Shown piece after piece: positions 45,789 through 56,804 of a DNA stretch of 64,000 nucleotides. A program made the translations under genes and the position numbers. Positions within the stretch are counted from its first letter, which is position 1. Each line of letters starts with the position of its first letter. The notes under the pieces were generated by a model that was not told the origin of the DNA, made no database searches, and saw only the letters and a program-made list of their open reading frames with translations. Source of the DNA: Sphingobacterium haloxyli (GTDB lineage Bacteria > Bacteroidota > Bacteroidia > Sphingobacteriales > Sphingobacteriaceae); assembly GCF_002980525.1 (NCBI RefSeq), contig NZ_PVBQ01000006.1:62001-126000 (forward strand), given 5' to 3'.

Positions 45789-45849
45789 GGTTCGAATTTA
45801 GAGAAAATCTTCGATTTTTATATCGAAGGTGTTCTTTAATCAAATTTTA

Positions 45850-46020
45850 ATGTTAAGAGAGGGTTCGTGCAATTGTATTGTCCCATCCTTAACCCATTAT
45901 TGCCACATGTAAAATTTTGATAACTGTAGAAATATCATTTTTGCAGTACCCATCTTATCAAAAATTTTTAAGTGGCGGCTTTTTTTGTTTCCTTTTTTTG
46001 AGAGAAAAAAAGGAAAAGCC
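45850..46020 (+). repeat. Composite structured repeat, copy A
   Basis: About 170 bases sharing clear similarity along their whole length with 53611-53774. Three stem-loops occur in the same order in both copies. Stem-loop 1 (45852-45893) is closed by GTTAAG/CTTAAC and carries the conserved loop GCAATTGTA. Stem-loop 2 (45902-45976) is closed by GCCAC/GTGGC with an inner AAAATTTTGATAA arm. Stem-loop 3 (45988-46016) is TTTCCTTTTTTT/AAAAAAAGGAAA. A GTCGC/GCGAC hairpin follows at 46022-46038. It fills most of the gap between the glycosylase gene and ubiX. No reading frame is evident. Confidence 0.8.
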
Positions 46021-46072
46021 AGTCGCGGCTTGAGCGACACAAAAAACATATAAAGAAACCCTTGTTTTTTAT

Positions 46073-46080
46073 TAGCTTTG
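46073..46080 (+). promoter_or_regulatory. -7 box upstream of ubiX
   Basis: TAGCTTTG matches TAnnTTTG and ends 11 bases before the ubiX ATG at 46092, so any leader would be about 5 bases. No good -33 element is visible. Confidence 0.35.
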
Positions 46081-53449: not shown

Positions 53450-53474
53450 CTTCTTTTTCCCCGTGAAAAAGAAG
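53450..53474. repeat. Hairpin in the ispD leader
   Basis: CTTCTTTTTC, a 5-base spacer, and GAAAAAGAAG form a perfect 10-base-pair stem 20 bases ahead of the ispD start codon. No T-run terminator follows on the ispD strand. Confidence 0.7.
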
Positions 53475-53531
53475 CAAAACCGAACAAAGTGAGCTCATGG
53501 ATACTAAAATAAACACTTATCCATAAACCTC

Positions 53532-53605
53532 GTCGCTTCGAATGTTTTACATTTGGGATAGTACTAATGATGAATTTGTACAGTTGTAAAACATTCGGAT
53601 GCGAC
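53532..53605. repeat. Long imperfect inverted repeat between sbcC and ispD
   Basis: A 20-base arm starting GTCGCTTCGAATG (53532-53551) is complementary, with one bulge and a single mismatch, to the arm ending CATTCGGATGCGAC (53585-53605), leaving a loop of about 33 bases. Part of that loop, GGGATAGTAC (53555-53564), is also the exact reverse complement of GTACTATCCC (53636-53645) within stem-loop 1 of copy B of the repeat, allowing alternative pairing. Confidence 0.75.
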
Positions 53606-53610
53606 TGTTA

Positions 53611-53774
53611 ATGTTAAGGAAGGGATTCTGCAATTGTACTATCCCCTCCTTAACCTCTGAATGCCACATGTAAAATTTTGAAATATGTAAAAATACAATG
53701 TATGCAATATCCCTCTATTCAAAATTTTAAAGTGGCGAGTTTTTTCTCCCTTTTTTGCGGACAAAAAAGGGAAA
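53611..53774 (+). repeat. Composite structured repeat, copy B
   Basis: About 164 bases aligning along their whole length to 45850-46020, in the same orientation. Stem-loop 1 is 53613-53654 (GTTAAGGA/TCCTTAAC, 14 base pairs with one mismatch and the same GCAATTGTA loop). Stem-loop 2 is 53663-53736 (GCCAC/GTGGC with AAAATTTTGAA/TTCAAAATTTT). Stem-loop 3 is 53748-53771 (CCCTTTTTTG/CAAAAAAGGG). The last stem ends 3 bases before the sbcC stop codon on the opposite strand. Confidence 0.8.
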
Positions 53775-56700
53775 TTAATGCAACTGACTTCCCTTTTCTA
53801 TATCGTTCACTACGGTAATAGCCCGCGGAATACGCTCTTTCAGCTCCTCTACATGGGAAATAATACCGACGATACGGTTATCCCTATTCAGATATTGCAA
53901 TGTTTCAAATACGGTATTCATACTTTCGGGGTCTTGCGTACCGAAACCTTCGTCGATGAAGAAAAAATTCTTGTCTGCTTTATTCATCGACTGAATGTTT
54001 TCCGCTAATGCGAGAGCAAGACAGAGTGAAGCCTGAAATGCTTGTCCGCCAGAAAGTGTTTTCACAGAGCGTTTAAAGCCGTTGTTCAAGAAATCTACGA
54101 CCTCAAATTCATTATTTTCATTAATTGTGAGGCTTAAATTATTTTTTGTCAATCGGTGAAAGCGCTGATTAGCAATTTCACATAAACGTTGTAAGTGTAT
54201 ACTAGATACATAGTTGACGAAACCAGAGCCACGGAAGAGGTTTTCCAGTGTGGTCAAATTGCTTTTTCGAAGCGTCAACCGCTCGTATTCTTCCAATAAT
54301 TTTTCCTTCCTCTCAAATTCGATACGTAAGTGAGCATATTCTTTTTCTAAAGCTCCAGTTACACGAATCTGTAATTCAAGCTCCTCACGTTTTAAAGCGT
54401 AGAGCATTGTTTTTTCTTCGAAGATGGATTCTTCGTAGGCATCGTGGGCGGTACGATGCTCTAAATCAGCAATGTTGCGTAAAAGGATCTGTAGATTTAA
54501 ATTAAACTCTTGTATGGTTTTCCGATTACTATCCACATCTATGTTTTTTTGCAGTATATGTTGTACCTGTATAATATCGTTGTAACCATGGTCCTTCAAT
54601 AAAGTGGAAATTTCAGCTTGCTTACTGTTAAGTTGTTGATAGAGCTGTTGGAATTGTTCTTTTGAGGCCGCACGTTCACCATTGATATGCGCGAACTCCG
54701 TTCTCAAAGATTGAATAGATTCGGAGAGTCGTCTATGACTTTCTTCCAAAAACGTAATTTTATTTTCCGTTTCCTGCTTTTTATTTAGAAGTTGCGTTTC
54801 GTCAAATTGTTCATAGTCTTCTGTTTTCAACCTTTTGATCTGCAGTTTGTTTTGTTGGTTTAACTGATCTAATACGATAATGTTTTGTTCAAATGCTGCA
54901 AGGGAGTTTTTATATTTTTCTATTTTCAATTGGCAGGCTTGCCACTGTGCGCGGAGGTTTTTCAAATTGGCTTCACCTGATTTGATATGGCTCTCTGTTA
55001 GATGGTTCTTATCTTTATACGCTCTAAAGGCTGTTTTGTCAGCGGGAGAAAATGCTTCCCATCGAAATTGTTTGCGATGGATGTTTAGTTTCTCCTCCAT
55101 TTGTTGGAGGCTGGTTTCACATTGGGTCCGTAGTGCTTTCTTGTCGTACCAACGTGTGGAAGCAGCTGTCAGCACTTGGTAGTTTGCTTTAAGCTGCTGC
55201 AAACGCTGTTTGATCTCGGTTTGCTTTGCGAGTATCTCCTTTATTTTAATTGCCACATCATGGTTTTTCATCGGGTACGGGTGGGCTAATGCACCGCATA
55301 ACGGGCAAGGTTGTCCGTCAGCAAGGTTGTCGGCAAACTCCGATAGCTTCGCTTGCACCTGCAAGTGGGTTTCCTCCTGCTGTAACGAAGCGAGCTCGCT
55401 GTTTAAATTTGTTTCTTGTTGGAGAAGATCGGCTTCCCACTTGTCAATTGACGTTGATCGATCATCAAAAATTTTTGCTGTTTGCGATAATTCGTTTTGC
55501 AGTTGTTGCTCGTGCGTTTTCAGTTCCGCAATCGCGGCATTGATATTGTTATCGGTTTGATACCAGGACTCCAGTGCCAGCAATACTGACGTATCCACGC
55601 GGGTATTTTTAAGCTCATCTAGTCTCTTGTCCTCATTTTCTATAGATGCTGAGAGTTTTCTTTCACCTTCCTGAGCGTCTACAAGATGAGGTTTTCCATC
55701 TTGTAGACGCTTATTAAGCTTTTCCTGTTGCTTCTTGTTTTGAAATATATTGATAAGTATATTTAGATCTTCAGTTTTTGCTTTGAATAAATCCAGTTGC
55801 TTATAATCAGGAGCTATCTCTTCCCATGCACTCTCCTCTTTTTCCAAACGGCTTAAAATTTCACTCTTTCGAATTGTAAGCTGTTCGATTTTATGTGTGA
55901 GTTGTTCTTTTTCTTTGTTTAAGTTATGTGTGGTATTGAGGATCTCCTTAAAAGCCGATCGGGTGGTTTCATATGTCTGTAGTTCTTTTTCCAACTGGGT
56001 GATTCGTGGATGCTCTAGCAGGTACGCCTGTACCTCCTCTTTTTTCTGCATCAATTCATCCCGTGTCTTTTTGCTTTCCATAAGCCGGCTGACTTCTTTT
56101 TCCAACAATGCTGTTTCCTCTTTTACTGAAGTTAAATGTTGGCGCGCAGTTTCGAGTTCGTGTTGCTTACTGTTCAATGTTTCCGTACTGACAGCATTAA
56201 AACCGGAAAGTGCTCCGCTTAGTTGTTCTAGTTTGTTATTATTCTTTCGTTGGAGTATTGCCACCTTGGATCCCAAATCAAAACGATCTAGGCTAAAGAT
56301 GTCTTTCATCATCTCTGATCTATCTTTACCGCGTAGTTCTAGGAATTCTTTGAACTGTCCCTGTGGGATAATGATAGTACGTCGAAAGTTGGGGTAGGTG
56401 AGTCGTGTTACAATTGCGCCATCGTTTGAATCTAATGGAGCCCATGCATTGTCTTTCCATTCGTAGGCATAGCGTTCCAACGACGTGGTGTCCTCAAATT
56501 TTTTTCGTCGTTTCCAATGCGCTGTAAATCTGAGTTTTCGCCCTTCGTAGTTCAGAAATTCGAATACGATATTAGCAGTGTCTGAGCGAAGATTAAGCAT
56601 GTTATAAGCCCTTTTCTCCTGTTTGTTGAGTCTTTCAGTCTCTCCATACAATGCAAAGCTAATGGCTTCGAGTATACTGGATTTGCCAGATCCCACTTTC

Positions 56701-56804
56701 CCAAATATACCAAATAACCCGGCCTCTGTTAAATGAGTGAAATCAATTACTTGTTTATCCTGATACGAATATAATCCTTCTATACTTAAATAAATTGGTA
56801 GCAT
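53775..56804 (-). CDS. sbcC: SbcC/Rad50-type DNA repair ATPase
   Basis: Large SMC-like ATPase of 1,009 residues that works with SbcD in processing hairpins and double-strand breaks. It has an N-terminal Walker A (GKVGSGKSSILE), long coiled-coil arms, the zinc hook CPLCG at Cys500 and Cys503 in the middle, and a C-terminal signature TLSGGQAFQASLCLALALAE with Walker B FFFIDEGFGTQD. All parts are intact. It starts 3 bases after the sbcD stop, so the two are one operon with sbcD first. Confidence 0.96.
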   Translation of the reverse strand: MLPIYLSIEGLYSYQDKQVIDFTHLTEAGLFGIFGKVGSGKSSILEAISFALYGETERLNKQEKRAYNMLNLRSDTANIVFEFLNYEGRKLRFTAHWKRRKKFEDTTSLERYAYEWKDNAWAPLDSNDGAIVTRLTYPNFRRTIIIPQGQFKEFLELRGKDRSEMMKDIFSLDRFDLGSKVAILQRKNNNKLEQLSGALSGFNAVSTETLNSKQHELETARQHLTSVKEETALLEKEVSRLMESKKTRDELMQKKEEVQAYLLEHPRITQLEKELQTYETTRSAFKEILNTTHNLNKEKEQLTHKIEQLTIRKSEILSRLEKEESAWEEIAPDYKQLDLFKAKTEDLNILINIFQNKKQQEKLNKRLQDGKPHLVDAQEGERKLSASIENEDKRLDELKNTRVDTSVLLALESWYQTDNNINAAIAELKTHEQQLQNELSQTAKIFDDRSTSIDKWEADLLQQETNLNSELASLQQEETHLQVQAKLSEFADNLADGQPCPLCGALAHPYPMKNHDVAIKIKEILAKQTEIKQRLQQLKANYQVLTAASTRWYDKKALRTQCETSLQQMEEKLNIHRKQFRWEAFSPADKTAFRAYKDKNHLTESHIKSGEANLKNLRAQWQACQLKIEKYKNSLAAFEQNIIVLDQLNQQNKLQIKRLKTEDYEQFDETQLLNKKQETENKITFLEESHRRLSESIQSLRTEFAHINGERAASKEQFQQLYQQLNSKQAEISTLLKDHGYNDIIQVQHILQKNIDVDSNRKTIQEFNLNLQILLRNIADLEHRTAHDAYEESIFEEKTMLYALKREELELQIRVTGALEKEYAHLRIEFERKEKLLEEYERLTLRKSNLTTLENLFRGSGFVNYVSSIHLQRLCEIANQRFHRLTKNNLSLTINENNEFEVVDFLNNGFKRSVKTLSGGQAFQASLCLALALAENIQSMNKADKNFFFIDEGFGTQDPESMNTVFETLQYLNRDNRIVGIISHVEELKERIPRAITVVNDIEKGSQLH

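Follow-up and report, generated by a model that had tools for sequence, protein, structure and literature searches.

Two palindromic intergenic elements of Sphingobacterium haloxyli as probable members of a dispersed, modular repeat family restricted to the genus

Two intergenic elements, here called A and B, in a 64,000-nucleotide stretch of the Sphingobacterium haloxyli genome (the window) are probably members of a Sphingobacterium-specific family of composite palindromic intergenic DNA repeats that are non-autonomous, operate at the DNA level and are rearranged by recombination. On our best reading this family is genus-specific and MITE-, BOX- and BIME-like, and we name it Sphingobacterium mosaic invertible palindromic repeats.

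An earlier note on this DNA had described A and B as diverged copies of a three-stem-loop element that align along their whole length. The alignment is borne out: A (45847-46016) and B (53608-53774) share 135 identities against 30 mismatches and 7 gapped columns (135/165 identical), with a local score of 151 that is far above the scores of 300 dinucleotide shuffles (20.1±2.5, maximum 28). The three stem-loops, namely a central palindrome (Y), a long hairpin (Z) and a T/A-rich hairpin, were located in the described order in each copy, and the arms of the T/A-rich hairpin differ between A and B while being self-complementary in each, in agreement with the proposal that pairing is kept where the bases differ. 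The gene contexts were also correctly given and the gene families confirmed, A being placed upstream of ubiX, between it and a gene for a deoxyinosine DNA glycosylase that is divergently transcribed, and B directly 3' of sbcC, between sbcC and ispD. Overlooked at that time were the inverted repeats that bound A (45825-45837 and 46052-46064) and the further extent of B to the left, to 53450, which includes a fourth long hairpin, X (53532-53605). The features of A are as follows.

45800..45812, + strand: left flank of A, end motif in direct orientation (AGAGAAAATCTTC), still found in the empty A site of genome G053
45825..45837, - strand: left inverted end of A (GAAGGTGTTCTTT), 1 mismatch to AAAGAAAACCTTC
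45852..45893, unstranded: central palindrome Y of A, GTTAAG...CTTAAC arms with GCAATTGTA core
45902..45976, + strand: long hairpin Z of A, 75.7 bits with covariance model R1 (alignment A1)
45988..46016, unstranded: T/A-rich terminal hairpin of A (TTTCCTTTTTTT/AAAAAAAGGAAA), self-complementary arms
46022..46038, unstranded: short G/C hairpin GTCGCGGCTTGAGCGAC in the right tail of A, at the same place in other copies
46052..46064, + strand: right inverted end of A (AAAGAAACCCTTG)
46073-46080: promoter-like box TAGCTTTG of ubiX, after the right inverted end of A

Hairpin Z consists of a 5-bp outer stem (GCCAC/GTGGC), an inner stem of about 11 bp (AAAATTTTGA) and a conserved loop (TGTAGAAAT...TATCC). 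The idea that the end motif serves generally as a promoter element is not supported, and its clustered matches in the window are at A only. The features of B are as follows.

53450..53474, unstranded: left T/A-rich hairpin of B (CTTCTTTTTCCCCGTGAAAAAGAAG), outside the coordinates of the earlier note
53480..53527, unstranded: variable outer insert of B (CCGAAC...TTATCCATAAA), recurring in several copies
53532..53605 (L005:1425-1498), - strand: long hairpin X of B, 85.6 bits with model R1, its reverse complement homologous to Z
53613..53654, unstranded: central palindrome Y of B, GTTAAG...CTTAAC with GCAATTGTA core
53663..53736, + strand: long hairpin Z of B, 84.9 bits with model R1
53747..53772, unstranded: right T/A-rich hairpin of B, directly adjoining the sbcC stop codon

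B is a nearly complete member of the family. A is truncated, its left half having been deleted: the left T/A hairpin and X, both of which G087 has at this site, are gone. In sbcC (53775-56804), whose 3' end B adjoins, the insertion of B has replaced the last codons, which read QLH* as compared with QLTYH* in species where the site is empty. The sbcC gene encodes a nuclease that cuts DNA hairpins.

Reading of 30 copies from the S. haloxyli genome with their flanks gives a complete unit of about 330-450 bp, and 14 copies that were measured range from 314 to 451 bp. The modules are ordered as inverted end GAAGGTTTTCTTT, T/A-rich hairpin, left cruciform, Y (GTTAAGGAGGGGATAGTGCAATTGTACTATCCCCTCCTTAAC-like), right long hairpin, T/A hairpin, often a G/C hairpin (GTCGCGGCTCGAGCGAC-like) and inverted end AAAGAAAACCTTC. 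The left cruciform is interchangeable. Most often it is X, the right-hand Z hairpin in reverse complement, and the whole element is therefore a large imperfect palindrome; in some copies it is W, another nested palindrome (CAAGGCTGAATATGGTTTTGC...), accompanied by only half of Y. The order of half-Y, long hairpin, T/A hairpin and G/C hairpin is retained in diverged species. Terminal inverted repeats are present, with the 13-bp GAAGGTTTTCTTT...AAAGAAAACCTTC exact at both ends of three copies in the S. haloxyli genome, and nine of the ten exact genome-wide matches to the 13-bp end motif are at element ends. In seven loci (L012, L015, L016, L018, L022, L024 and L028) a segment of 40-45 nt (CTATTCTCGATGCGGGAGAAGTGCGGGGTAGAGGGACGCATC) has been added to the arm of Z, or substituted for part of it, at the same place.

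Further copies are numerous. BLAST of A against its own genome, a check suggested in the earlier note, returned 58 matches, about 36 of them at E<1e-5. A covariance model of 74 positions (R1), built from 30 copies of the long hairpin, identified more than 80 long hairpins in the same genome at E<1e-5, a number that is a lower bound since 150 of 3680 candidates were scored. Across the genus, R1 has matches in 30 of 94 Sphingobacterium genomes, nine of which are rich carriers with at least 40 each, and several other Sphingobacterium genomes carry diverged versions of the hairpin. Across the bacterial family, matches were obtained in one of 25 genera (401 genomes). A scan of 84,980 species genomes for the conserved-loop pattern likewise gave matches in Sphingobacterium only, namely in S. 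phlebotomi, S. corticibacterium, S. arenae, S. gobiense, S. chuzhouense, S. micropteri and strains FBM7-1 and SGR-19. Plasmid and phage collections gave no match at the sensitivity used, and carriage by plasmids or phages was rejected.

All 38 distinct elements classified in the S. haloxyli genome (39 entries) lie between open reading frames. Codirectional genes flank 20 of them, divergent genes 13 and convergent genes 5; for comparison, the gaps of at least 20 bp in the window comprise 23 codirectional, 7 divergent and 5 convergent. Divergent promoter regions are not avoided by these 38 elements.

In a plain MAFFT alignment of 30 long hairpins 95% of the cells pair, compared with 31-48% when the structure is slid along the alignment. 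In the same alignment 14 of 18 pairs changed on both sides, and cells changed on both sides number 104 versus 34±5 in shuffles. Among 133 distinct hairpins, aligned by fitting to the model and hence biased towards it, we counted 2216 Watson-Crick pairs, 70 G-T, 32 A-C and 71 others. The loops are conserved while the arms covary, almost only by Watson-Crick pairs, and the 21 distinct arms of the T/A hairpin are all perfectly complementary. The earlier note had named a lack of further copies and of covariation as counting against its reading; both further copies and covariation were found, and chance likeness between AT-rich hairpins was rejected on this covariation together with the A/B score that exceeds all shuffles. 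The scarcity of wobble intermediates leads us to infer that an RNA helix is no better a fit than a DNA palindrome kept or copied as such. On one strand G-T mismatches moderately outnumber A-C mismatches, which would be compatible with a folded strand of preferred polarity.

The earlier note had left the choice between a structured RNA and a structured mobile repeat. The repeat half of this statement stands on the high copy number, the exclusively intergenic location, the inverted ends and a site occupancy that varies among species. The RNA half does not. In favour of a multicopy Sphingobacterium RNA, either a small RNA or a cis-regulatory leader, are the strong covariation with conserved loops (TGTAGAAAT...CTATCC) and the position of several copies just upstream of promoter-like boxes, but we consider this reading unlikely: both strands fold, because the element is nearly palindromic; every gene context is occupied, convergent and divergent included; one and the same site can carry the element in either orientation, depending on the species; half-elements and elements with swapped modules are maintained at a single site; and wobble intermediates are very few. 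Nor did any Rfam family reach its gathering threshold in the window or in seven loci; a known Rfam RNA was rejected, with weak matches that vary from copy to copy without recurrence (e.g., Flavo-1, 21.7 bits versus a threshold of 42).

Comparison of the same sites in other species reveals differences in occupancy, module content and orientation. At site A, G053 has no element, whereas G087, G066, G008, G014 and G059 each have one, that of G059 with a different left cruciform. The A-site elements of G014 and G066 match at 94% over 311 bp with one inverted relative to the other, and neither flank is turned. In a comparison of all copies from nine genomes, the G014 A-site copy is closest to its counterparts at site A of G066 and G008, and no other copy within G014 exceeds 82% identity to it, so that we regard it as the same element turned round. 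At site L010 the element is inverted in G087 (97% over 200 bp, flanks 84/81%, next best copy anywhere 86%), and at site L012 it is inverted in G014 and G066 relative to S. haloxyli, G087 and G059. Site L022 has an inverted-orientation match in G014 (80%). Both orientations of one site were found at three sites, all in comparisons between species.

Invertible intergenic segments of Bacteroidota lie between short inverted repeats, in either orientation and next to promoters. In analogy, dozens of the intergenic elements could be DNA switches flipped within one population by a dedicated site-specific recombinase acting on the 13-bp inverted ends, a reading in line with three sites inverted between species with intact flanks, with the presence of inverted ends and with the promoters that often stand beside elements. 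We nevertheless find it improbable, as no recombinase gene is next to any copy examined, the site-A inversion breaks within the terminal hairpins and not at a single clean core, and spontaneous strand switching of a palindrome would give the same outcome. Unlike the known segments, these elements are dozens of dispersed copies of one palindromic family, and their inversion was seen between species only. Similarly doubtful is a variant in which a putative dedicated recombinase reads the conserved loops (TGTAGAAAT...GTACTATCC) and, acting on the palindromic islands as single-stranded DNA hairpins, inverts and re-assorts them. If true, such a loop-reading recombinase would make promoters reversibly variable across the genome.

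At site B, G087 and G059 have no element and 20 nt between the two genes, and G007, G055 and G070 are likewise empty there; G053, G066, G014 and G008 carry elements with differing combinations of modules. The Z, Y and T/A hairpin portion of the B element (window 53650-53775 versus L134) is 98-100% identical in G014, where the flanking genes are about 84% identical, and G087 and G059, which are closer relatives than G014, are nevertheless without the B element. Element-bearing intergenic regions have thus probably been exchanged between species. Given this exchange at B, an empty site alone is no proof of transposition, and interspecies recombination may account for some of the occupancy differences. 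Pairs of filled and empty sites show deletion-like scars or diverged flanks, with no target-site duplication recognised among them, and several empty sites retain part of the 13-bp end, as if the rest had been deleted between short direct repeats.

A search for a mobilising enzyme bears on how the family has spread. The elements could be REP/BIME-type units moved by a REP-associated tyrosine transposase (RAYT; HUH, Y1), given their head-to-head paired palindromic units, the GTAG tetranucleotide in the conserved loop and the high copy number. Yet none of the nine rich carriers has the PF01797 domain of this enzyme, which the same search did detect in controls and in 21 further Sphingobacterium genomes. 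The hairpin measures 74 nt, with a long loop, rather than 20-40 bp, and GTAG is in the loop instead of the foot. We accordingly rejected RAYT/HUH mobilisation and hold this reading to be very improbable.

A more serious candidate is a conventional MITE whose partner IS, with a DDE transposase, has been lost or missed. This reading concerns spread only and is compatible with our preferred explanation, so that confidence in the two overlaps; we regard it as possible while giving it tentative weight. The elements are short, non-coding, foldable and located between open reading frames, as MITEs are, and they have inverted ends. Against it, no transposon with the same ends was found among the end-motif matches of the S. 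haloxyli genome, a draft assembly that breaks at repeats; an IS at contig ends carrying ACAGAAAACCTTC, one mismatch from the 13-mer, turned out to be an unrelated IS; and no clear target-site duplication was seen. Twelve regions of the same genome between closely spaced modules contain apparent host genes only, with no autonomous copy. As neither a target-site duplication nor a cognate transposase was found, the word 'mobile' refers here to dispersal and to occupancy differences.

Taken as composite palindromic repeats, the elements would be non-autonomous, selfish-type sequences that fold as single-stranded DNA hairpins or cruciforms and not as one defined RNA. Since their halves and ends are mutually inverted repeats, strand switching or homologous recombination within one element could flip it, and recombination with another copy would exchange one half or one module. 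Copies may be shortened or lost through deletion between short direct repeats, and A may have lost its left hairpin and X in this way. The original dispersal would have been due to a putative enzyme acting in trans, and the complementarity of the arms could be kept either through self-copying of the palindrome or through selection for the hairpin. The conservation of loops and end motifs suggests recognition of the folded strand by a protein, now or in the past.

The family works like modular BOX or BIMEs, with no tested defining sequence or enzyme in common. As described by Croucher et al. (2011, PMC3049150), BOX of Streptococcus pneumoniae (boxA-boxB-boxC) is likewise composite and intergenic, with modules in variable combination, a length of up to several hundred bp, restriction to a genus, about 100 copies and a predicted fold. 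BOX differs in sequence, phylum and module plan, and the likeness is one of analogy. According to the same source, BOX has terminal inverted repeats, target-site duplications and a proposed IS partner, whereas for the Sphingobacterium repeats neither an IS partner nor a target-site duplication was found. The BOX variation reported there concerns the number of boxB modules, in contrast to the in-place inversion seen here, and pneumococcal repeats are enriched between convergent genes, which is not the case for the Sphingobacterium repeats (5/38). Its authors view BOX as parasitic rather than functional. Neisserial intergenic mosaic and Correia elements, compared by their description in this source, are also intergenic and mosaic or bounded by inverted repeats, and differ in size and module architecture.

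REPs are 20-40 bp with short loops and a GTAG or CGTC foot tag, and are found mostly between unidirectional and convergent genes; GTAG REPs go with RAYTs, and CGTC repeats, which occur in Bacteroidetes, are without a dedicated transposase (Di Nocera et al., 2013, PMC3733652). The Sphingobacterium repeats resemble REPs and BIMEs as intergenic palindromes in many copies and in pairs of opposite orientation, and the CGTC type also in having no dedicated transposase. Unlike REPs, they have a hairpin of 74 nt within a unit of 330-450 bp, are common in divergent contexts and have no RAYT.

In the literature searched, which covered few subscription journals, we found no published Sphingobacterium repeat family of this kind. 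This large family therefore appears to be undescribed there, in a phylum with few described interspersed palindromes. It provides an unusually clear record of long palindromes in bacterial chromosomes, with arms that change and stay complementary, modules exchanged across loci and elements flipped in place, and it raises the testable question of whether inversion proceeds by spontaneous strand switching (SbcCD/RecA-dependent) or enzymatically. For annotation and phylogenomics it carries a warning, as element-bearing intergenic regions recombine independently of the flanking genes.

Several minor observations concern repeats around the elements. About a dozen contig ends of G000 (e.g., L218:1-140, L219, L220 and L231) share one IS end (...GAAAAAGCCGCCTCAGTTATTTTTGAGACGGCCTC followed by host sequence), and in L220 an insertion of this contig-end IS interrupts the Y palindrome of an element. 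In the diverged carriers G055 (L188-L196) and G070 (L197-L200) the hairpins adjoin repeats of short strings, for example gtagtgcgtaatgcgtagtgag, frequently at the ends of contigs, which suggests recent expansion. In Sphingobacterium sp. FBM7-1, the long hairpin is found in two tandem arrays, one of four units with 162-bp spacing (L078:3266-3825) and a second of three units with about 267-bp spacing (L113:7412-8000).
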